A stretch of 17,998 nt of DNA from Eimeria necatrix (lineage: Eukaryota > Apicomplexa > Conoidasida > Eucoccidiorida > Eimeriidae): the NCBI RefSeq assembly GCF_000499385.1, contig NW_013654610.1:1-17998 (forward strand), written 5' to 3'. Positions 1 through 17,998 of the stretch are shown in pieces. Under the pieces are notes generated by a model that was not told where the DNA came from, made no database searches, and saw only the letters and a list, made by a program, of their open reading frames with translations. Numbering within the stretch: position 1 is the first letter of the stretch; each line of letters begins with the position of its first letter. Position numbers and translations under genes: made by a program.

Positions 1-30
1 GAAGTAGCATGGCCGGATTTACTTTGTGGG

Positions 31-77
31 GTTTTTTCAGTACGGGACTCTGCACTCCCGCTTTAAAGGATTCAAAT
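31..77 (+). other. Strong isolated acceptor with possible 37-nt exon
   Basis: The run gttttttcag (31-40) is the best polypyrimidine-AG in the window. No donor follows at 3 nt; the next GT donor is GTGTTT after 37 nt (exon 41-77). The stretch is open in the TAC GGG ACT frame. It lies only 150 bases before the first triplet site, so it may be chance or a longer exon upstream of the series. Confidence 0.2.
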
Positions 78-191
78 GTGTTTGGTGATGTGTTGGTCAT
101 ATTAAATGCATCCTGAAGACTGTAGCTTTAGTTTCAGAGCAGCGTATTTTATAGAAACTGTGCATAGTCTTTGATATACATGAATTCCTAG

Positions 192-194
192 ACG
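192..194 (+). other. Candidate 3-nt exon, ACG (Thr)
   Basis: Acceptor gaattcctag, triplet ACG, donor GTGCGG. It is the first triplet site in the window. The donor departs from GTGCGY at the last base. Confidence 0.35.
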
Positions 195-3100
195 GTGCGG
201 TGACTCACTATCCTGCTGGGAATGTGCAGATTACTGCATAACGATCTGACGAAAGACATTTGCAGAGTATGCTAGCCTGAGCGGGTGGAATGCTCTTCTG
301 TGGAAAGATTCATGCGCAAACCCAGCATTAGGGAAGTTGTTGGGCAATTGCCCTTGCAAATTTCAGCTTTTGCGAAGGCTTGTGCAGAAGAGTAAAAATG
401 GAAACGATGCAGTTTACACGTCATGACCGTGCATATTTTGAACACGAGATCACAGATTGTGGGTTGGACAGATAAAATATGCTTGATTCGGACGGACCCT
501 GTTGCACGTCTTTGAACAGCGCCTCAATCGGAACGTAAACATCAAACATATACAATATTGAGAGAGTTTCTTGCGACGCGGACTGCGAAGAGTACTGTGT
601 ACCTGCTCCATGACAAGGCAGGCCTCACTATCCATAACGAGCCTTGAAGCGTCAAGACAGCATCGAACTGCGCTTGCAACAGGATGTACACGCAGCTCTG
701 TTGGGACTTCAAGGCCAATTTTGGACGCGAGGGCGATTCGAGTCAAATGTGCTGCGGGCTAGGCGGATGCTTTTGGCCTTCTATGCGGGCTTTAAAAAAC
801 AGTAGAGTGATGTGCTGCATCAAGCCAACACATTTATATAAAGTAGACGCTTCCTAGAAAGTGTGTTTGATGAGCACGCTCGTGAGCACCAGTGCTCAGG
901 CGTTCGCCTGTTTTTATGCGTTATGGATGTGAGGTATCGGTGAAAATAGTGGACAGCTTGCAGGGAAAAGCTGCGGCTTGCGTACGCTAAGGCTGTTAAT
1001 GTTTATCCTCCTGATGTCATGTTGGCGGATCGACATATCTAAAAAATAGCTGAATGCCCATGCAATATACGCACAACTATATGCGTGTGCGTGCATTGCC
1101 GTATTCATAAGAGTAGAGCCACATGAAATCTGTTTGTGTGCATATTTTGTTGGGCGTCATGCTGTGCGAAAGCACCAAATTGGAACTGGAGGCCTTCCAG
1201 AAAGTCAGTTGGTTGAGGATACCGCCTACGATTGGAGACGTCTGATTATTGTTGAGCGCCTCTAGGCATTGCGTTCAAAACGATTGAAAGAAGCACCAGA
1301 ATTACTGGGGCAGAAGTGAGCAGCGAAGTGTTTTCGTGTTGGTATCAAATGAGATCAGCGCTGCCAGGAATTCTTGATTTTCGCATTACTGCTGCGTGCC
1401 AAGGTCTAACGGCCGGTAATTTGCTCTTCAAGTAGACTAAAAAGGTTAGACGCTACTGCAGACTTTTCAAGAGATAAACTAGAAAGCAATATACGTCGCC
1501 TTGTCACCCTGTTCCACGCTCCCTCTTGGTGACTTCACGGTTCACAGGAAGTGAGCTGATTGAATGGAAATTCTGGGCTTGCATGCAAGCAAATACTATT
1601 TTGATTGGAAACCAATAGCCCTACAGAGGGAATGCACCCTGCTTTGATTCCTGGAAAGGCGCGGTATGCGTGTAACGCCAGTAGTAGTACCGGCCTGGAA
1701 ACGCATTATTTCTGACTGTTCCCAAAAGAGCCTGATACAACTGTCAAGACAATTTATACTCGTGGGAATTCTTTTAAACAAACATTATATGAAAGAGGCA
1801 CAGATATAGAGCATGATATAGAGGAGCGCCTCAGGATAAGACAACAACTTTCCAGGTGGTGCGCTTAATCAAAGAAGAGCTTTCTGGGATGTTGATTTGA
1901 ACCTTGAACTGGGCAGCTTTGAGTTGGTCGGCTCTTTTAGAGACTCCAAACGTATTTTTCTCGTCTACGTGTTCTTTCACAAGGTTCCCTGGCTAATATG
2001 ACAAAGGCGCGCGATTCCTAGGATTTCAGGGTCATTCAGATTTAATATGAACATGAAAGATATGTACACAAGCCGTTTATGGAACAAAGACAACTTCACA
2101 TTTTAGGAAGTATGTTAGATGAGGATATTGCCAGGGACTCGGACTGGGAGTACTAGTGTGCTTGCTCGCATGTACTTTATGTGAGAGGCCAGTAGCCATA
2201 CGTAGTCAATTCGAGATGCCAACGGTGCAACTACCTCCCTGTGATTCAAACGTTTACACGGCCATTTTAGACAAAGTATGGCGGATGTGACAAAGGAGCT
2301 GGATTTGCAATTGAGTTGCATCGAAGCTCCAAAAGTAACTTGCCAGGATGTCCAAACCCAGCGTAGGCGTCAACGAGCCCCCAGGAAGGCCTGAAATTTC
2401 GGTGCAGCATGGTGTGTGGGAAAGAAACAAAGGCCAAATATCATCTAATCCACCGAGAGTCGACTTAGTCATGCCGCTTTGCCGACTGGGCTACCAGGAG
2501 GTGAGCTGAATATTCACGCTGTCTGGGCTGATGCGCAGATGTGCTATGCGACGTGCGAATAGTGCGCCGAGAAGTTATTGAGTTAACGACACCGGAACTC
2601 GCATCATTCTTCCAAGACGTATACCAGCTTTGTGCGCTCGGCAGATTGGCAGTACTCATGAAGCAAAGGCAAATAACGCAGGTGGTATGTTTGAAGGGCA
2701 TGCTGATGAGAAGGCGGACTCAGTGCTCACCTTCGTCATTTGGGCTGCTGCATTTGTTGCATTCAAGTCGCAAAGTAAGTCACGGAGGCGTTACACAGGC
2801 CGAGAAGATACGTTTTGAGTCAGCGCTGCTACAGAAGCGCCGCTTTTGCAAACTCACCGTCCTTAATGTCCTGGCTGAATCAGTTTGCTCATATACAGGC
2901 TCTCCGCACTACCTGTGCACTGTCGAAAACGGTGCTGTACCTAATTACACAAAATAAGCGATATATGCTTCTGTGAAGGCGTACTTGAACCTGCGATGAG
3001 GCTCGCGTTAGCAAGTGCGTCGGGTTGCTGACACATTCATTTTCCAAAAGCAGATGTTTCAGAAGTGCAAAAATGGCAGACGAGGCAGCTGAGACTCAAA

Positions 3101-6100
3101 TGCTTTTGTTCTTGTCTAGACAGCAGTTTTGTTTGTAGACCGAGTTTTGGACAAAAGCAGCACGTACAAGGTATTGACTTGCATTTGAGGAGCTTGGCTT
3201 TAGCGGGGCAAATTGACATGTTGCGAGCTAAAATTTGACTGAAATGAATTTGTGAAAATTTTTGATGGCAACGAACCTCAACATTTCGTGTGGTGAGAAA
3301 ATCTTCACTGGTTTGTGTAGTATTTTAGAAGTTCTTGAAGTTATCCAGATGACCTGCCTCCTAGAGAGTGCGTTCGTGGTGCAGACTGTCGAGCATAATG
3401 AGTGGCATCTCACAGGTTTGCCATTCGATGACATTAAAGCAGATTACGCCGCTTGAAATCACGCCAGTATTCTGCTGTTGCACATGAATTTCGCATTAGT
3501 TGCGTTTGCGAGGCTGCCAGGATCTGGAGTTCTTGAATTGGAGATGCCACAAGCACCTCTAAAGCGGTCTTGGAAAACAGCATATGCCATGCATGGTTGC
3601 TCTTTGGTCATGGTGAAACCGTTGCGTCTGACTGTTTCAATGTGTGAGGTAGGGTAAAACTGTTCAGTCTCGGTGCTTCAGGGTTAAGCCGAATGAGCTC
3701 CCAGAAGGTGCGTTGAACGCGCTTGCCTTCCCAGGTGTGGCTTCGTAGCGGCGTTACGTACAAAGAAATTTGCTTCTAGACGGCACCAGAAGCGGCGGCA
3801 TCTGCAGCACAAGCTACTACCATGTACCTTACCGTGTATGCATGATTTGCTGTATCATTGCACACAATGTGCTTGAACAGAAGTGCACTGCACGCAACTG
3901 GTGCCCCAGCAGGTTAATCATGCAGAAAGTAGAGGCAGGGCGCCACATTGGGGCACTGATGCCATGCAGCTAGGTGGTTTCTCAGCGAGTAAGCTAAAAA
4001 ATGGTCGGGACAGCAATTGAGCGTATTGTGTCCTGCCTATGGACATCATTTTTGTGGTGCGCTGACAGAAAACCTGGGCAGAAGGCACTTGCTACTGCTG
4101 AACTTTCCTTCACGAAGTTTATTTCTGATGGCGAAGCATAATTAATTGGCCTAGATGCATCGCTAGTTGCTTTCTAGGGATTTTCAGGCTCGCCTTTGTC
4201 TTTGGCAGACCCTTTCCCGAGTCATTGACAGTGTTTCACGTTCTGTGCAGCAGTGCATGCCTCAAAAGCAGTTTTAAATAGTCAAACATTTCATATTACT
4301 CTTGTGGGTAGAATGGGATTGTTTGCAGAGTGTGCGTCAGCGGTGAAGTACACACACTGGAAGTGCGACGAGGGAGCGCGGAGCGCGTGCATTTGACTGC
4401 ACACCATGCAATACACATCCTCAAGGTTCAGCTTCATGTAAAAGATACCAAGCGAAGGTTCCTATCGTGAAGTGCCTAACGTGTGCAGTAACTTTACGAC
4501 GTTTGGGCGCTATGCGTGCTGGATCAAAGGGGAGACGAGTGCCGCAGCATTTTTCAAAGCTTACTTTTGACGCTGGCGTGCTCGTATGTTACTGCTTCGC
4601 AGAATCTGAAGTCAGCGGCAGCTTGCGTAGGGTAGGCAAAAAAAGCTGGTTGCTGCGTCTGCACTCAATCGTTACCACACAGCAAGTGCGTCAGCTGAGT
4701 AGATACCTTAGGATGCGAAATATTAGACCCGTCTCGTGCTCGGTTTTGGTGATATGTGAACTACAGAGCTGTATCGCGTGTCTACTATGCTGTTATGATG
4801 TCTACAAAACGCAAGCTTCCGGGATTGTAGGATTCTGCATGTTGTGCTATATTGAACACCAAATATGCACACATGAAATATTAGAGCCCTGGGACAAAAT
4901 GAAGAGTCTCGCCGGCCACGACTTCTCGCGGAAAATTGGGTTCGTGTGCTGCAAAGCAATAAATTGCGTTGAAACCTGGTAGAAGTGGGAAAGCAAGTGA
5001 TTCACTTGACGCTCCACCACTTGACCACTGACGGTCTGTAGCGCGTGCGTTTGAGTGCACACCATGTAATACACATCGTCAAGGTTTAGCTTCATGTAAA
5101 AGATATGAAACAAAGGTTCCTATCGTGAAATGCTTAACGTATGCCGTAACTTTACGACGTTTGGGCGCTATGCGTGTTGGATGTGCCGCAGCGTTTTCAA
5201 AACTTATTTTTGGCGCTTGCGCGCTCGTGAGAGAGTTCAGAAAGTGCGTTAAGGGATAGCCTGCTGAAGGCGTGGGCAGAGGATGCCATCATACTGTCTT
5301 GTCAACTGACAAGGCCTTTTGTGCAGCAGGAACCCTTCAGTCGGAAGCATGCGCCTGTTGCAATCGAGCAACTGAAAGCTGCTGTGGCAGCGGAAGAGGT
5401 CGCCAGTAGTGATACAATTCTTACACTATTATTTGTTGCTCCTTAGGAACATCCAAATGCAGCGTTACCTACTCTCCGGATGTGTGAACTAGAGGCTGCA
5501 ACGTACCTAAAACATTTTCTGTGCATCACTGAGAGCAATGTGCATCTTGTTGAAAGAGATGGTCCCCAGCATGTGAGTTATATGAGTCGGATGTTGAAAA
5601 TTCTTTCTAACATGCAGCAGTTTCTTGATGTATCTCTCCTTTGCGGAAACTACGGTCTTGCATGTTGTGCTACTTTAAGCACCAAACATTCACACATGAA
5701 ATATTAGAGCCCTGGGACATTATGAAGAGTCTCGCCGGCCACGACTTCTCGCGGAAAATTGGGTTCGTGTGCTGCAAAGCAATAAATTGCGTTGAAACCT
5801 GGTAGGAGTGGGAAAGCAAGTGATTCACATGACGCTTCAACATTTGACCACTGACGGTCTGTAGCGCGTGCGTTTGAGTGCACACCATGCAATACACATC
5901 GTCAAGGTTTAGCTTCATATAAAAGATACCAAGCGAAGGTTCCTATTGTGGAATGCCTAACGTGTGCCGTAATTTTACGACGTTTGGGCGCTGTGCTTGC
6001 TGGATCAAAGGGGAGACGAGTGCCGCAGCATTTTTCAAAGCTTACTTTTGACGCTGGCGTGCTCGTATGTTACTGCTTCGCAGAATCTGAAGTCAGCGGC

Positions 6101-9100
6101 AGCTTGCGTAGGGTAGGCAAAAAAAGCTGGTTGCTGCGTCTGCACTCAATCGTGACCACACAGCAAGTGCGTCAGCTGAGTAGATCCCTTAGGATGCGAA
6201 ATATTAGACCCGTCTCGTGCTCGGTTTTGGTGATATGTGAACTACAGAGCTGTATCGCGTGTCTACCAGGCCGTCATGACGCCTACAAAACGCAAAGGCT
6301 TGGACAAGCTTCCGGGACAGTCGACTTGTTGTTAGCACTGTAAGAAACTGTTTTGCATGTGCTAAATTTTACTGCAGGTCTCATACAGCATATGCAGACC
6401 TAAAACGATTCGACCTTGCTTGAGTGCATGCAGGATTTCAGTAAGGGAGGCATTTTAGAGAGTGAGCGCAAGCGGCTGGGCGACCACGGGCAAAACGCTG
6501 CTGCAGGAATGACAGCATTCTTCAGCACATCCCTGTAGCTCATTCATCATGTTCCTATGCATTTTGTACGTGTGCCCCGTTTAAATGTGGCCGCTGACGC
6601 GTTCCTGAGGAGTGCGAGCCAGGGGTCAAAGCTGATGAATGCGAAAATTTTAGTGTAAAGCAGTCCAGAAGTTTTTAATAAAGAGTGTGCGTGGCATTTA
6701 GACACGATGACGCCCAGCAATGTGGCTGGTTCTGCAGGAAGCTACAAATGCTGCCACGGAAAGTCACGACGCTCGCCTAGGGTTTGGGTTTATAAATACT
6801 CACTAAAGTGTTAAGAGGTCCTTGATGTGGTTTGTAAGACGTCTTTAAAGTGAGCTGTGCATTTGCTGCACTGGCCAGAAAGTCATTCATCGAATGCTGT
6901 TTGTTCCAGCGTGCGGACTGCGGTTTCGTCGGACTGTTTAGGGCCCAGTGCGGACCCTTGGGACTTATTAAGTAGCTGTAGTGATATCGCTGAATGCGGC
7001 TTCAGCAGCATTTCTTAATGGAGAAAACAGTCTGCGAGCTGGGTGCTTGACGAGCATGAATTCTAGGCAAGATGGGTTGCAGCGAGTATGCTTCGTACAG
7101 GGGCCATCTAGGAGGCTGTCCCTCAGCTCCATTAGCGCGTTGTTTTAAAGTGTGTCCAGCAGGCACCAACATGTTTCATGGACACTGTTACTACAGAGTT
7201 CTTTTGCACATTATAGACCAGCATAGGCACGCAAACGTAGCTTCGAGGGGCTTTATAGAGCTAAAAGAAAGAGAACAGTAGCCACCTGGCTGGCACATTA
7301 TATATGTAGTGCCACGCTGGAGATAATTATTGCTTCTTGTTTATCAACCACGTGAAAAAAATTCTGACGAGCCGTATTTTAGCAAGTGTGTCAGATAGAT
7401 TTCCTACAATTAAGACTAGAGGCGCCTTCTCCCTTTGGTAAACGCGTTGACTATGTATTTTTGTGGCATCAGTGCAAAGCTTTGGTAGCTTTGTGCCCAT
7501 GCGATGTTGGCCGAGCCGAATTTGCTTGTGTACACTTCAGGCTTGAGGCTTCGTGGCTTCGGTGCAGTGCACTAGTCCAGGACAGTGCGCCCCTAATTGA
7601 GTTTTTTTGCGGCTAATGGTGTTTAACTGGACAGCGTTCGTATTTAGGACTGTGCGTGCAATTCAGTTAAGATGATCATAAGAGCGTGCGTTGGATGAGC
7701 AGTCTATGAAGGGTGACGATTACGCATGCAGCGGTGCGCCACTGGCTTTGGTTTTGGGAGCCAGTGCAGGCGGCCTTAGATGTGGTTCAGTGTTTGCAAC
7801 ACACTCGCTAAGCTCGCAAGGTTGCTGCAGATGCAACCCGCCGATGCCTAGGGTCTTGTTCTGCAACGATGCACCGTTGACTGTGTCTAGCATCGATTTA
7901 GCCTGGCGTGCCTTGTTGTATCGTGGTGTGCATCCCACTTGAGCAGAAGTCCTTCCAGCTTGTATGTCGACTGATGGTTCTTCGAAGCGAGTGCTGAGAA
8001 CGCAGCTGTATACCACTAGAAGCCATTCGTTCTGGCTTGAACCAAAGCATAGTTTGAATTGCCGTTTTGCGTTGTGCGCTAACAAACTGCTTGTGGCATT
8101 CAAAACTGCCTGAACAAAGACACGCTGCGGTACAGGAGGATGAGGGGTTTCGCGTTGAGCGCTTAGCGTTCGTTGTGCTCAGCCGCAAAAAGACTAAAAG
8201 ATCGCATGCTCAAAGGTAAGTCGAAAAATTGCACAGCAAGTGCGCTGCGCGACATGGCGATCGAAAACATAGACCGAAAACATCCCCACACGTGAATGAA
8301 AGCATCTCGTGGAGGAAAGCAGTTGATTAGCCAACCAGCACATATGAACTGTTACAGACGAATGAAAACTACAAATAAGTGCCCTGCCGCATTTTATTTT
8401 GGCGTACAGCGCTGCTGGCTTGAATCTAGCAGCAACAGATATCACAATGAATTCCAGCAAATAAGCTTTCCTAATTTGCACGATTTTGAGAAAAACTGGG
8501 CTGCAGGATGTGCGTTTTATAAATGGGCCTACACTGTTGTCGACCGAAACTGGGCTATATCTTCATTATTTTGCTTCAGTGAGGCAAGAGCTGACAAACG
8601 TCTTATGCTTCGAACCTTTTACAAATTCTTTGCCCTTGCGCGTCAGGAGGAAGCCATGCCTGCGTTGTGCAGTTGTTACACTTAGAAGAAGGGTTCGATA
8701 TGTCGGAGGTTCCCCTCATGCTCCTAATGCGCTGCCGGCGCTAAGCAGCTGGCTTATCAGCAGTGTGAGTGAAACCAAAAGGCGACGGTCTTAAGGAAGT
8801 GCGTTAAAATGGCAGGCGGCCTTGAATACTGACTAGCAATGAAACCGCGTAATCCTGGAAAACCATCTTGGTCACAGAGTTTGTACTCTGGCATTGACAG
8901 TGCTAGCAATGCTAGCAATGTAAGGCGCAATTTATCCCCATGATATCCACCTTTATAGCATGCAGCAAAGTGCATCGACCACTGCTTGCGAAACGCGACC
9001 GTGGAAACACAAGAATTTGTCGGTAGGAATGTGGACGAAATGCAGTCCTAGCACGGGCTTTAAAAGACTCTACAGCAGGCTGTTGGCGAGCTGAACACGT

Positions 9101-12100
9101 GACTAACTGAAGCTGGACGTGGAGCTAAGACAAGAGTGAACCTTTAGGTGGTGCGTTTGGCTGACCACGCGACCAAGGGGAGCGGTTTTGCCTCAAGCTG
9201 CCAGTTGCTTCCTTCCCTGCAGAGCAGAGGGTTACTTGCTTACGGGGTCTTGCCAAGAAATGCAAGGCGCTTGTGCTTGATCGCCGTAAAATTTCTTGAA
9301 AAGAACTTCGTCATGAGCGGAACGTGCATTTCTAAGCATGACTAGACAAACTACAACTGCTGCAACCTTTGTGTTCGGCAAATATTCCAGGCAGGGAAGC
9401 TACTTGCAAATTTATACAGTTGTGGGGGCTTGTATGCGCCAAACAAACTCCACGTGGATCGAGAGTGAACCTTGAATGCGATTTTCCAGGCAGTAGGTTG
9501 AGTTGCGATCACAGAAAGTGTAAACATGAAATGCTATTCCGTGCGCTTGTAAGCTGTTTTTGTGCAATGGCCTAAGAGTGTTTTCATACAGCTATTTCAA
9601 CCGGTGTATGAGAGTTCACCATGCGCCTGTCGTAACAACGTACTGTTTAGCGTATTCCCAGAGGAATCCAGAAACACGTGCTGCTGCATAGAAAGTGCCT
9701 ATGGTGCATTTGCAACAGAATCTGTCATGCCTTCGCGTTGACGTACTTCTGTGCAGATAGTGCGTCACATGCGTAGCCTGTCTAAGGGTTGAGCCGTTGC
9801 TTTCGACTGTCGCTTTTGTGGGGCATGAGTGGATGAGGTTCTGCATTGTGGCGTGGGCATTTATTTCAATATAATTCAACTGCGATTCCCCACGTGCATG
9901 CTTTTAAGAAGACCAGAACAGTTGCAAGTGGCATCAGTCAGCCTCGTGGACCCTGTGAGAGTTCACAAAACTTACTGAGGTCTTGGCAATGCGTGACAAA
10001 ACAGCTAGGCCTTGTTGCAGCAGTCCGCGCATACAAAAGGAGAAAGCCAAATTGCCGTATCTGGACTGGATGCTTGCAAACAATTGAGACGCGGGTCTCC
10101 AGGAAGTGCGTTCGACAGGAGCTGCATCAAAGTTGATGGTGGCGTTTCGTTGGATGCTGACTTCGCTACGCAAAAGAAGCGCCAGTAGATGACATGTGAT
10201 TAAAGCTTGCAACGGAAACTCTCGAAATGCTCCGGGCATCGTCCGTTAATTTGGCTGTGACCCAGAGGAAACAGTGCACTTTATTGAAACGATCAAGGCC
10301 TACTGCGCATGGTAAGTTTAGGGCATAAACTCCAGAGCTTAGGGCGTCCGGTTTAGGGCTCACCTCGTGGAATGTGGTACACAATTTAGTTGTCGCTTGA
10401 TTACGTCTTGCAGGGCATTCATAAAGATCGGTTGACCCACGCGGCACGGAGCGTTTCTACGCATGAGATGGATCCCAGAAAGTGCGCTAAATGATTTTCA
10501 TGCTGAGGATGCCAGCTGGCAATGCAGCTGTTTGCTGCTTGAATGCGAGTTGAGTAAAGATGGGTCACTTGACTCAGGATTTTGCGTTTCTCATTGTGCA
10601 AGCCACGATTGGATATGTAGAGGTCTCAACTTTGATCACAGGGCGAAGCGCCTTGGATATCGGCGAGTAAAACCTTCCGAATTTTTCATTGAATAAAGTG
10701 CACCCACAGCATCTCACTTGAGTAAGTTTTTGGGACTCTGGGACAAGCTTCTTCGTCGATGACATGAATTCTGTGAAGGAGGTAATGCTCTAAGAGAGTG
10801 TGTTGGATAAACAGCGTACTATTGATACTGAAAGACCGTGCAAGCGTGTTTTGTGCATCGAAAACTGCGAATTGACTCGCCATGCTCCATCTAATGACAA
10901 ACGTAGAGATGCATACTGCTCCTGCGTCGTTGGCCTGAGATATTTCCAGCCCATAAGGCCGGCGCCAAAAGGCGCTTCACGCGGCTAGAAGGGTGCTCAG
11001 GCCTGGCGTGGTCGTCGAACAGGTCCTTTACAAAAGTTTACCGTGGGTGTTGGAGCTTTCCTGAATAGGTGGAAGTGTTTTTGGTGTAATGGAGGCTGTT
11101 AACGTTGCTGAGACGGGGATACTCACAGGAGGTGCGTAGAGCTTGTTGGCTTTGCAGAATGCAAAGCTTGGGACGGCTGATTGTGGCATGATACGGGTAA
11201 AGGTAGATAATCATTATGCCGAAACCTGCATTGAATGACACAGAGCTCCAACTGTCGTTTCCTCGCAAGAAAGGTGACTGGTACACAACATGTGCTTTGC
11301 GGGTTTGCTAGGCCAATTCACGATGCCGTTTGAATTATTGACAGTTTCGCCTTCGAGTTCCAAATTCAATGCAGTGTAGTCTTAGGGGGAGCCAATTGTT
11401 GCATAAATAAGCACGTTACTTTGATAATAACTTAATCTCAGAACGTGCGCTCTAAAACAAAACCGCGGTTTCTTGTCATTACGTTTAAGCCTTCCAATTA
11501 GTTTTACGAAACTTGCACGAAGCGTGAACAAGCAAACAAACCCTTGATATCGCAATGTGCAAGACAGGCAGCTGCTAGCTGTTTCGAAACAAGCCTTTGC
11601 AAGAAGCCAAATAGAGTGTCGTACTATAGAGAGCCGACGAGGTGCTGGAGGATGATTGGACAAAATGTTGCTTAACTGGTACCTTCGCGTAGGATTGAAC
11701 AGTTGGCGAACGTACTCCACAACAGAACATGCACACAAGTATGTCTTTGAAACCTCAGCGTATCAAATAGATTTTGTACGAACAGCTTTTCAACGACAAG
11801 AGTCTCCTGCTGCATAGAAGCGAGACACACGCGATCTTCAGAGAGTTCGCCAAGATCTACAGATATATCGTCAAAATTGATTGCATGCTGCACTCCTGAA
11901 ACTGCCCTTCCACCTTATTTGCCGTGTTAAATTATCCAATTGTGCATCTTAAGGGGAGCTGCCATATGGAAATATCGAATGTGTCCATTGCAGTGACAAT
12001 AAAACAATACGTTTTGCGCGTAGATACATGAAAGCAGGCTACTGCGCTTTGTCTTGGCAATACGGGTACCTGAGCAGGCCATTTCCACATTTCAGCAGAG

Positions 12101-15100
12101 CTTTCTGGTTCACCTTGAAATGTTTTGCCCGAGGGAGGATGAATGCATACGCTGAGCTACAAAGTGAATAAATCTTTGCTGGGGATATGGTGTGAGCGTT
12201 CGACGAAAGCATGTTGATGCTGGCGCAGTGTCGTCTTTTATTGCTGTATGTGCTGCTGTGTGTTTTGCTTTGGAAGTGAAGGCTGACGGACGGCTGTGGG
12301 AATTGTGGTCACTTACGTTTGGAAGTACAAATTCACTCCTTGATTTGATATCCGAATAAGTGCACGACCATGAAACAAACCAAGCTGTATGAGCCCGAAT
12401 CTGAGTATAGCATCAGATATCGACAGTTAAAGTCCATTTTTGGAGACCTTTAGGTTGTGCGTTAATTTCACGTCGGCGCAAAAGCTAATGTAAGGGTAGA
12501 TACACCTGCACTGGTGCATGACGCAAATTCTGCATGGTTCAAAGCAGTTGAGCTCCTTCGGTAGACCGCTCTTTTTCGGGTTAATAGGGTGAACTGATGA
12601 GGATGATGAGGATCGTCCAATGTGTCATATTCTGGTTTAATACGATGTAGACCGCCACACAAGTTCGCTGGGCGAACTTGCGTGGCTTACACACTTTCAC
12701 AGGTGAACTGCGGGGAATAAGCGTTTTTACATTGAAATGAGTGCGCTCTAAAGACGGCTGTGCCAGTTCATGACATTTGCGTAAACGTGTGATGCGAAGT
12801 GACGCAGTGGAAGGACAGTAAAGCATTAGCAGTCTCATCGGTGGAGAAAATACACCTGCTGCTTATGCTTTCTAGCTCTAGAGAGCTACGTCTAGCATAT
12901 AAAATAGTTACCTCTAAGTTGCCTCTACTTTTGAAAACGCAAACACTCACAGAGAAAATTGCATACATGTCCAGGCGGTTATCATAATGTGCCTTTCGAG
13001 GCAGGCGTATTGTTTTCTACCAGAAGAAGTTTGTTTGTGTGCATTCAGATTGATTACAGACGCACAGTAGAGAACCGGTTATATATCGCAAGCTGCTGGC
13101 AGTGCAGCTCCACGACAAACTGGAGCAGCTTTTATGTGACGGTGTTGCAGGTTCGCGGCCACATTAACGCGTGAGCACGATCAATTGTGACTCTTTGCGT
13201 AGCATTTTGACAGTATTAAATTACGGCGGAGGTAGGCGGTTGTCTCGGCCAAGCATTACATTCTTGGAGAGGTTCATTACATCAGCTGGCTGTGACATGC
13301 TTTTCCGGTGCGTGGTGCCCACATAGAACTATAGGAGAGCCAGAACAGAAACGACGCAGCTTGACAGTTGCTTTTGAATCTGTTCAGACTGTGCGCCGCT
13401 TCTTTATGCGCTAGCATGCATGTTATTCTCCCGTCACATTGCTTTGTTTACTGGGGTTCTGATGGCAAAAGCCTTACAGGTTCTTCAATAAGCCTGCCAC
13501 GGCTGTTGCTGTAAGTTATATTGTCTGTTTTGGTAGCGTCTAGACCGGTTGCAGCATTCAAGCGTTAGCGCAAAAGAGTGGCCTGGAGGTTCTGAAAAAA
13601 GTCGCTGCGCTTCCTATGGGCATGAGTTTTCAGAATACTGTGGGACGCTTTTAGTGAGTCGATGAAGCTTACATTTGTAAATTTGGCGTCGCAGTAGTCT
13701 TGTCGATGATCATAGCTCTCCTGACACTCCAATATCTTGAAGTGTGGCACAACCTGCCGATTGGCTGCGGATTGGCTTGCAATCACTTAAACCGTGACGC
13801 TAACGCGTACGAGCGAATAATGACTTGAGCGAAACAAGCCAAATCTACGAAGGCTGGTGTAGCTTGGAGACCAGAAGCATGAATTGGTGAGCAGGCCTGC
13901 GTGACGACTTGCTGAACATTGCTAGTGCACTACAAGCTGTCGAACTGCCAGCTTTGGCTTGCGCCTGTGTATTTGTGAAGGCAGCGCCGGAAAGGCAAAC
14001 AGCAATTCTTCAGCGTAACATGTAAAGCCTGGTATCAGCACAGAAAAATGAATTTTCGGAGAGGTTTACCAACTAACCCTGTGTAGTTTGGAGGCGTGAA
14101 AGCATGCGAAATCAGTCATTTGCTACTGGGGCCTTACAGGACGTAAGTGAAGAAATCCGGAAGGCGCCTTAGGCTTCCCTTGAGTTTCAATTATAGCTCA
14201 AGGGTTCTGCACAGCAAACGTTCATGGAAACGCCTATCAAGACGACGGCATTGTGAACGGCGAAGTTGCAACTTTGTTCCTCTTTAAGTGCAGAGGGATT
14301 TACTTCACCAGCCGGTTTGATGTGCAGGGAATTTGAGCAGTACAATGCGACTTCAACCTGGCGGCAGCAAGCAGTCTGCCGTTTGAGCGACGCCGTTTAT
14401 CGCGATGACAGTGACTCCGAATTGCGGCTTTAATTGTTTATGGTGATGGCCAAACAGTTCGTGCGTTCGTTTTACGAGAAAATGCAGTTCGATGCCTTTT
14501 GGTGTGGTTTGGATAAAGACAGAATAAAGCTCACATGCAGTTGCAGAGTGAAGCCAGATACGACTTCATGAGAGCAGTCCAGTGCCAAAAGAATGAAGTC
14601 GCCCTCGCGTATACCTGGCGCATATTGGTGGACAGAGTGAGAGCACGCGTGGAGAATTACCTCAGATGTGCAAAAGCTGGCTGCGGTTGTTTCGAAATGC
14701 AATTTTCGACTAACTGCGTGGAGGAGCGTGTAAAATGCTTTCCGTGACCAGCATTTTGCGTGAGAGTGCGGTGAAAATATAGCACGAGAATCCTTTTAAT
14801 TTGCATGAGACAATGAAACTGTACAATCCACTCTACGTAAGCCTCCGAGAAAGGTGTACACTGTATCAAGTGTGCACAAGCTGTTCAAGGGCGTTTTATG
14901 AATGACTGTTACCCTTCAAATGTGATTCGTCCATGCCAAGCAGCTCAAGCAGCATCACTTACGTATGAACGTGAGACCACAATATGTCATAGCTCAGGTT
15001 GCCAATGGCAACACAAAGTGATTTTGAGACACAAAAATTTAGTTTTTAAGTTATTTTCCGTCGGTTTGATTATCAGTGCGCGAAACAGAATCAAAGGAGC

Positions 15101-17835: not shown

Positions 17836-17998
17836 GTGCGTATGGAGCAAGACGCATGTGTAACGCTTGGCTTTGCCCCGATAGTTTGCAGAGTGGCTGA
17901 AAAGAAAGGAATCCCGCATCATTTGGAAGTGGGAAAGTAGAGTTTAGACCAGTGGGCGTAGTCCTGGTCACTTCGCAGAGTGGCAACGGCACTTCGTC

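Follow-up and report, generated by a model that had tools for sequence, protein, structure and literature searches.

The exons of schistosome micro-exon genes (MEGs) measure 6-81 bp (3-81 in the abstract), most of them 15 bp, with 10-20 per gene (PMC10526429). Exons of three nucleotides have been described in mouse Ncam and Drosophila troponin T, where they occur singly inside ordinary genes (PMC8042270), and the 1-nt microexons of the plant genes APC11 and VPS55, which reference annotations missed, are likewise single and lie in otherwise ordinary genes (PMC8831610). Within the genus Eimeria, the E. tenella assembly paper puts the number of exons per gene at 6.34 and their mean length at 350 (PMC8515493), and the part of the E. 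necatrix long-read paper that was available makes no mention of exons like those considered here (PMC8474931). We analysed a stretch of 17,998 nucleotides from E. necatrix (assembly GCF_000499385.1, contig NW_013654610.1), which we call the window and which is the whole of contig C969 in a genome of 44.0 Mb and 1148 contigs. A preliminary description of this DNA had reported 38 near-periodic sites at 192..11844, each consisting of a 3' splice-site word, three bases and a 5' splice-site word, and had interpreted the three bases as an exon. Our analysis supports that interpretation: the coding sequence of the window is very probably a chain of exact one-codon exons, all in phase 0. The absence of phase-0 stops, a zone of AG exclusion before the acceptors, the avoidance of NAG codons and the invariance of AG, GT and the G at +5 between two copies of the array are the reasons for giving it such weight.

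The fixed spacing between the two splice words was reproduced. GTGCGY occurs 38 times on the + strand of the window and 4 times on the - strand, and HAG precedes 25 of the 38 at a distance of exactly 3 bases, whereas 50 dinucleotide shuffles gave a mean of 0.80 such cases and a maximum of 5; the base before AG at these 25 sites is C in 16, T in 6 and A in 3, matching the earlier count. With the broader donor word GTRNGY, the 3-nt class comprised 43 of 113 words on the + strand and 2 of 56 on the - strand (shuffles: mean 4.7, maximum 12). Over distances of 0-30 on the + strand it was unrivalled, the runners-up, 16 and 23, having 12 words each. A position weight matrix (PWM) trained on the sites and applied at a main cut-off of 5.5 returned 47 sites on the + strand of the window, or 46 after removal of a 4-base echo at 1205. 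Exactly 38 of these lie within 192..11844, as reported, and 37 of the 38 score at least 9, the exception being 192 at 6.3; a looser cut of 5 gave 50 sites, the extras being echoes at 4687 and 6168 plus a site at 9079. Near-periodicity also held, with 33 of the 37 intervals in 192..11844 measuring 250-400 bases and a coefficient of variation of site spacing of 0.35 (echoes and 9079 counted in), compared with a mean of 0.96 and a minimum of 0.62 in 2000 trials of random placement. Two points of the preliminary description need correction. The array extends beyond 192..11844 on both sides, as eight more sites follow up to 17833, it continues into contig C206 and it starts before base 1, in contig C779; and its inner three bases do not vary freely, since they contain no stops, few NAG and few triplets that begin with T.

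Both of these contigs overlap the window. Window 1-4531 aligns with C779 17661-22224 and window 6070-17995 with C206 782-12556, in both cases at 90-95% identity, and to judge by this alignment the two look like pieces of one second copy, an allele or a paralogue. A regular-expression (regex) search found 58 sites on the + strand and 5 on the - strand of C779, and 49 and 5, respectively, in the first 21,000 bases of C206. The composite array (C779, the middle of the window and C206) holds 116 sites of score at least 9 in ~45 kb and includes an assembly gap, and the part in C779 does not extend back to the 5' end of the gene.

Dense one-strand arrays were present on six further contigs, namely C12, C57 and C64 (+ strand) and C3, C37 and C70 (- strand), with C14 (stretch L018) intermediate at 6 and 2 sites per strand. 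The preliminary description had held that a 3-nt peak in other genomic sequence would speak against one-codon exons. Such a peak does recur elsewhere in the genome, but in the form of one-strand arrays that bear the same marks, and ten comparison stretches (L019-L028) had only 0-3 sites per strand. The stretches were fetched for pattern hits or as comparison and are no random sample; the array statistics below cover eight of them (C779, C206, C3, C57, C64, C37, C70 and C12), with C14 mostly left out. Genome-wide, CAG was followed by GTGCGT after three bases 1240 times, compared with 361, 308, 390, 343 and 399 times after 2, 4, 6, 7 and 9 bases, and the same patterns read backwards numbered 229-279 each. 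Because the excess at three bases is ~850-900 and the CAG..GTGCGT form makes up 59 of 302 array sites, extrapolation from these hand-picked arrays suggests a genome total of ~4,000-5,000 one-codon exons. The genome also carries long CAG runs and TTTAGGG repeats; among the fetched stretches, CAG runs of at least 5 were absent from array regions and numbered 9-44 in five comparison stretches. In E. falciformis, the paper on a 43.7 Mb assembly lists CAG and TTTAGGG types as the most abundant repeats (PMC4287421), and by its repeats the present genome thus resembles that of an Eimeria or a close relative. An HSP90 homologue on C1062 (stretch L040) has many CAG-coded Q/A/S runs and an apparent intron rich in TTTAGGG repeats.

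The triplets themselves have codon-like content. None of the 302 triplets in the eight array stretches is a stop in phase 0, nor is any of 360 at a PWM score of at least 5. The same sites read 15-90 bases off gave a mean of 13.2 stops and a minimum of 5 (152 shifts), and other YAG-NNN on the array strands gave 153 stops in 3541. When the triplets were joined and read in the other two phases, stops appeared in most arrays. By length and frame the sites are thus microexon-like, with a dominant 3-nt class and a stop-free phase 0. In addition, NAG is avoided: GAA, AAA and CAA together occur 64 times and GAG, AAG and CAG 12 times, whereas the corresponding ratio was 33:26 in seven further pairs of codons ending in A or G (P = 4e-4), 58:30 when three more pairs were added (P = 0.011) and 37:25 in anti-strand AG-NNN-GT (P = 0.002). 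HSP90 codon usage (29:168) is a poor control here, as HSP90 is generally G-ending (CTA 0, CTG 30). Because an NAG codon would make a NAGNAG tandem acceptor and lose the exon, its avoidance is what splicing would be expected to select. The order of the triplets was examined as well. Those of C206 read F-L-L-V-G-R-I-G-L-A-M-L-V-V-V-A-A-V-G-Y-I-F-A-L-A-W-Y, and the best hydrophobic 19-mer of the composite (2.57) was reached in 6 of 20000 order shuffles. The C37 array opens at an exon candidate that ends ATG CCG CCA AAG AGG before a good donor, which we read as encoding M-P-P-K-R.

The acceptor side of the sites is marked by a scarcity of AG. At 281 sites defined by regex only, AG occupied 86 of 3372 positions from -15 to -4 (2.55%), compared with 4246 of 67200 (6.3%) at other same-strand HAG (P = 4e-23); the anti-strand controls had 242 of 4068 (5.95%) at 339 HAG-NNN-GT sites and 19 of 264 (7.2%) at 22 full-pattern sites. 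An exclusion zone of this kind is also predicted if the sites were stepping stones for recursive splicing in very long introns, with triplets that never enter the mRNA, or do so only by error, and a protein encoded elsewhere. An evenly spaced one-strand chain of acceptors followed by donors would look alike under that scheme. Classical recursive splice sites, however, are AG|GT with zero gap, and a long intron has few of them. The arrays show no excess at distance 0 (18 of 771 array-strand donors directly follow HAG), the 116 sites in ~45 kb are far denser, and triplets that are discarded need neither lack stops (0 of 302) nor avoid NAG. We therefore consider recursive stepping stones unlikely.

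The donor side is degenerate in the manner of splice donors, with GTGCGT at 87, GTGAGT at 30, GTGAGC at 23 and GTGCGC, GTACGT and GTGTGT at 19 each of the 302 sites, and the acceptors conform to TNYAG, with T at -5 and Y at -3 as the only informative positions. That degeneracy argues against a regulatory or structural DNA or RNA motif, YAG-N3-GTGCGY, with no part in splicing. A bipartite binding site would fit the fixed spacing and the lack of a 6-nt class, but it would explain neither the AG-exclusion zone at its acceptor half nor its codon-like middle, and we hold it to be most improbable. In the same genome, two ordinary introns of HSP90, their borders placed by eye from protein continuity, read GTGAGT..GTGCAG and GTAAGC..GTACAG; given these donors and acceptors, the arrays call for no new class of splice site. 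A second HSP90 gene, on C14, was unused as an intron source, its exon borders not having been worked out. The median length of array introns is ~300 bases and ranges from 158 to 680 among the arrays; lengths divisible by three make up 35%, close to the chance level.

Other exon lengths were rare by comparison. Under strict splice scores there was no 6-nt class (0 on the array strand, 2 on the other strand), and the excesses at 9 nt (14 versus 1) and 12 nt (9 versus 3) are weak, distances 19, 23 and 27 also reaching 11-12. When the wide gaps of the window were searched for exons of greater length, a few candidates conserved in C206 emerged, among them the uncertain 13875-13886, and C779 sites 410, 540, 8983 and 10035 may be the final codons of 12-nt exons. 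On C12 (stretch L010), 9-nt phase-0 exon candidates GACGAGGAC, ACTGAGGGG and ATTGAGAAG (twice) lie at 6974, 7659, 7856 and 8321 beside 3-nt exons, and this array is perhaps a gene with longer micro-exons.

Genes for spliceosomal RNAs were also recovered. Five U1 small nuclear RNA (snRNA) matches, three of them above the Rfam cut-off, lie at L020 1026-1186 (C18) and in L042 (C912), L043 (C76), L044 (C655, - strand) and L045 (C1123). The C18 match starts with ACTTACCTG, the usual U1 5' end, and the other four, two of which are below the cut-off, with ACTTACTTG. The substitution in ACTTACTTG lies opposite the final base of the exon and would give an advantage to exons whose last base is A; 126 of the 302 one-codon exons end in A and 48 in G. 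Two U6 snRNA genes with equal scores lie on the same strand of C167, ~830 bases apart (28423-28530 and 29255-29362).

Comparison of the two copies provided a separate test of the splice words. Among the 45 window sites that score at least 9, five fall where the second copy is without sequence. At the other 40, AG had changed at 0 of 80 positions, GT at 0 of 80 and the G at +5 at 0 of 40 (0 of 200 together), compared with 144 of 2578 flanking positions (5.6%; 5.4-5.7% in flanks of 30-35 bases). Where a donor word had changed, the second copy still read GTRNGY. Constancy of this kind, with all 40 aligned sites keeping their splice words in copies ~5-7% apart, is not what we would expect of relics, that is, of former one-codon-exon genes whose expression or translation has been lost. 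Relics would suit the local duplications and the assembly gap within the array, and the lack of homologues in protein database searches; yet no stop has arisen in 302 triplets, and we judge this explanation very unlikely.

Finally, the spacing and the words could be left over from tandem repeats, as in a diverged satellite. All introns were compared with one another within five arrays, alongside a between-array sample and shuffles. A few recent duplicate units (window 4382-6162 and the first 2.3 kb of C779) and one C3 intron pair do match, and in C206 the best-matching pair, the introns before the counterparts of exons 15450 and 16385, scored 35, where the 99th percentile of the null was 26. 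Apart from local duplicates, which stand out mainly in C779, within-array scores were near those of shuffled and between-array comparisons. Array introns thus mostly carry no signal of shared ancestry, and the chance of a satellite origin is close to negligible. In C779, short direct repeats with 85-100% identity make up a mosaic at positions 1-2317 (stretch L036), in which GTT and GTG one-codon exons, as well as a GTCGTTGAGGAA exon candidate of 12 nt, are multiplied; the mosaic appears to be recent array growth. Because each predicted exon holds a single phase-0 codon, a copied intron-exon unit would add a residue and never shift the frame. Within an array, most introns show no recognisable relationship to one another, and the arrays as a whole may have grown either through duplication or through the gain of introns between codons.

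Several observations weigh against one-codon exons. Exons of 3 nt are sterically hard to splice. No polypyrimidine tract beyond the T at -5 and no clearly enriched branch-point word was found at array acceptors. Many protist introns lack strong polypyrimidine tracts, and the missing tract and branch point lower, without settling, the probability that these are spliceosomal introns. When base content per triplet position was kept by column shuffling, the stops expected over the eight stretches fell from 13 to ~6, and under this control the lack of stops was significant in no single array; the rarity of T-first triplets explains part of it, and an acceptor preference could cause that rarity. Codon changes between the copies, 5 in 120 positions (2 synonymous, 3 not), are too few for a test of coding constraint. 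Of the 152 shifted readings, 2 contained a 19-mer at least as hydrophobic as the best one of the composite, whose hydrophobicity may therefore owe something to the base composition of the region, and a test of the C37 and C57 peptides for helical periodicity gave values no higher than those of shuffles. Near the end of C206 we saw, by eye, an acceptor followed by TGA, a candidate end of the gene, but a CTT site follows at 21140. Searches of protein databases with assembled peptides returned 0 homologues among 9, 23 and 7 candidates. A Pfam search with four peptides at E up to 10 gave nothing for two of them and 10 and 5 families for the others, all below the cut-off and mostly of coiled-coil types; for two of the four, a PDB sequence search gave best E values of 0.01 (a short match to designed barrels) and 0.39. 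These homology searches are weak tests, as the peptides may lack residues, two of them being padded with X so that longer relatives counted.

If the window encodes one-codon exons, the + strand would be the sense strand of a protein-coding gene in which GT-AG introns of ~300 bases part single codons. The spliceosome would remove them by intron definition or stepwise, gaining one amino acid per step; this route is likely, because U1 and the 3' splice-site factors cannot share a 3-nt exon. We infer RNA splicing at these sites and the order in which it would proceed. The predicted product of the window, TIKKEVEEVQRKRSQRKHRQRSRQSLQDEVAIEKRENRVTDFLLVG, would have a charged, basic stretch followed by a hydrophobic, possibly membrane-anchoring segment, the remainder of which would be encoded on the overlapping contig C206. 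In a broader form, the proposal is that the codon itself has become the exon in this lineage, with genes of tens of kb, thousands of one-codon exons and residue-by-residue splicing in phase 0; for this broader form we see the chances as evenly balanced. If it is true, the copying, loss or skipping of a unit would leave the frame intact, and segmental duplication or alternative inclusion could change a protein by one amino acid at a time.

The predicted features of the window are collected in Table 1.

Table 1. Predicted features of the window. Rows that give a codon are predicted one-codon exons; C779 and C206 are the contigs of the second copy.
Feature	Positions	Strand	PWM score	Second copy and remarks
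ACG (Thr), donor GTGCGG weak	192..194	+	6.3	C779 counterpart ACG at 17852 scores 8.5
ATT (Ile)	456..458	+	14.1	conserved in C779
AAA (Lys)	858..860	+	12.8	conserved in C779
AAA (Lys), donor GTCAGT	1201..1203	+	13.4	conserved in C779
GAA (Glu)	1548..1550	+	15.0	conserved in C779
GTG (Val)	1856..1858	+	15.4	conserved in C779
GAA (Glu)	2107..2109	+	11.9	conserved in C779
GAG (Glu; C779 GCG Ala)	2498..2500	+	15.6	splice words conserved
GTG (Val)	2682..2684	+	12.9	codon conserved in C779, donor there GTATGC
CAA (Gln)	3012..3014	+	10.3	conserved in C779
AGA (Arg; C779 AAA Lys)	3365..3367	+	15.0	splice words conserved
AAG (Lys)	3705..3707	+	17.7	conserved in C779
CGA (Arg)	3986..3988	+	14.0	conserved in C779
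AGT (Ser)	4329..4331	+	16.7	conserved in C779
Mosaic segmental duplication copying whole intron + one-codon-exon units	4382..6162	+		4382-4681 vs 5863-6162 96%; 4836-5135 vs 5659-5958 93%
CAA (Gln)	4683..4685	+	15.1	second copy unassembled here
CGC (Arg), duplicated as 5865	5042..5044	+	15.6	second copy unassembled here
AAA (Lys)	5241..5243	+	16.7	second copy unassembled here
CAT (His)	5570..5572	+	15.4	second copy unassembled here
CGC (Arg)	5865..5867	+	15.6	second copy unassembled here
CAA (Gln), duplicate of 4683	6164..6166	+	15.3	conserved in C206
AGA (Arg)	6459..6461	+	11.8	conserved in C206
AGT (Ser)	6684..6686	+	13.2	conserved in C206
CGA (Arg)	7083..7085	+	13.5	conserved in C206
CAA (Gln)	7383..7385	+	11.9	codon conserved in C206, donor there GTGCGT
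AGC (Ser)	7683..7685	+	12.9	conserved in C206
CTT (Leu; C206 CTC Leu)	7959..7961	+	13.9	splice words conserved
CAA (Gln)	8237..8239	+	13.5	codon conserved in C206, donor there GTGCGT
GAT (Asp)	8507..8509	+	16.9	conserved in C206
GAA (Glu)	8796..8798	+	14.0	conserved in C206
GTG (Val)	9148..9150	+	16.2	conserved in C206
GCA (Ala)	9490..9492	+	13.8	conserved in C206
ATA (Ile; C206 ACA Thr)	9757..9759	+	15.1	splice words conserved
GAA (Glu)	10103..10105	+	17.9	conserved in C206
AAA (Lys)	10479..10481	+	15.8	conserved in C206
AGA (Arg)	10795..10797	+	12.5	codon conserved in C206, donor there GTATGT
GAG (Glu; C206 GAA Glu)	11129..11131	+	14.9	splice words conserved
AAC (Asn)	11442..11444	+	15.9	conserved in C206
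AGA (Arg), donor GTTCGC	11842..11844	+	10.1	codon conserved in C206, donor there GTACGT
GTT (Val)	12454..12456	+	14.3	conserved in C206
ACT (Thr)	13388..13390	+	14.4	conserved in C206
Possible 12-nt exon (Lys-His-Glu-Leu), uncertain	13875..13886	+		acceptor+donor score 12.4; identical letters in C206
GAC (Asp)	14140..14142	+	13.1	conserved in C206
TTC (Phe)	14458..14460	+	16.2	conserved in C206
TTA (Leu)	15450..15452	+	12.5	conserved in C206
TTA (Leu), close surroundings like 15450	16385..16387	+	11.3	conserved in C206
GTC (Val)	17299..17301	+	13.0	conserved in C206
GGA (Gly)	17833..17835	+	11.6	conserved in C206

The window has 40 open reading frames of at least 70 amino acids, the longest of 171, and an Rfam scan of it gave no match at gathering scores. 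A perfect inverted repeat with 19-base arms and a 3-base loop lies within an array intron at 16867-16907. The 42 bases at 17135-17176 match C206 11429-11470 in inverted orientation (95%), and C206 itself carries a small inverted repeat formed by 11429-11470 and 11695-11736.

The preliminary description had called long runs of one-codon exons undescribed. In keeping with this, none appeared in titles and abstracts on Eimeria or Toxoplasma microexons or on 3-nt exons, among the matches listed; the subscription literature lay mostly outside this search, which is no proof of absence. If RNA confirms the arrays, they would be, to our knowledge, the most extreme subdivision of a gene into exons and would shift the known limit of exon recognition. 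Because a 3-nt exon is beyond the reach of exon definition, chains of one-codon exons would put intron-defined or stepwise splicing to the test, together with the accuracy of splicing (more than 100 joins per short protein) and the origin of such genes. They would also form a gene class that gene finders and RNA aligners hardly see and that the public annotations of related genomes may lack.

Among known systems, schistosome MEGs resemble the arrays, as judged from sequence, in their serial, mostly symmetric and very short exons between long introns and in the difficulty they pose for annotation pipelines. They differ in that an array exon would be a single codon, with no 6-nt class and 116 high-scoring sites in the composite. 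Another MEG trait is a secreted product with an N-terminal signal peptide. The 3-nt exons of Ncam and troponin T show that splicing can include an exon as short as three bases and add one residue, as is predicted here, but they stand singly, whereas the arrays have runs of dozens to more than 100. The plant 1-nt microexons show splicing of exons that are smaller still, but are also single, in contrast to the serial 3-nt exons proposed here. Recursive splice sites share the immediate succession of acceptor and donor, and with it a natural stepwise route, but have nothing between AG and GT, where the arrays always leave three codon-like bases. The HSP90 introns of the same genome use ordinary GT-AG splice words like those of the arrays, between exons that are hundreds of bases long rather than one codon.

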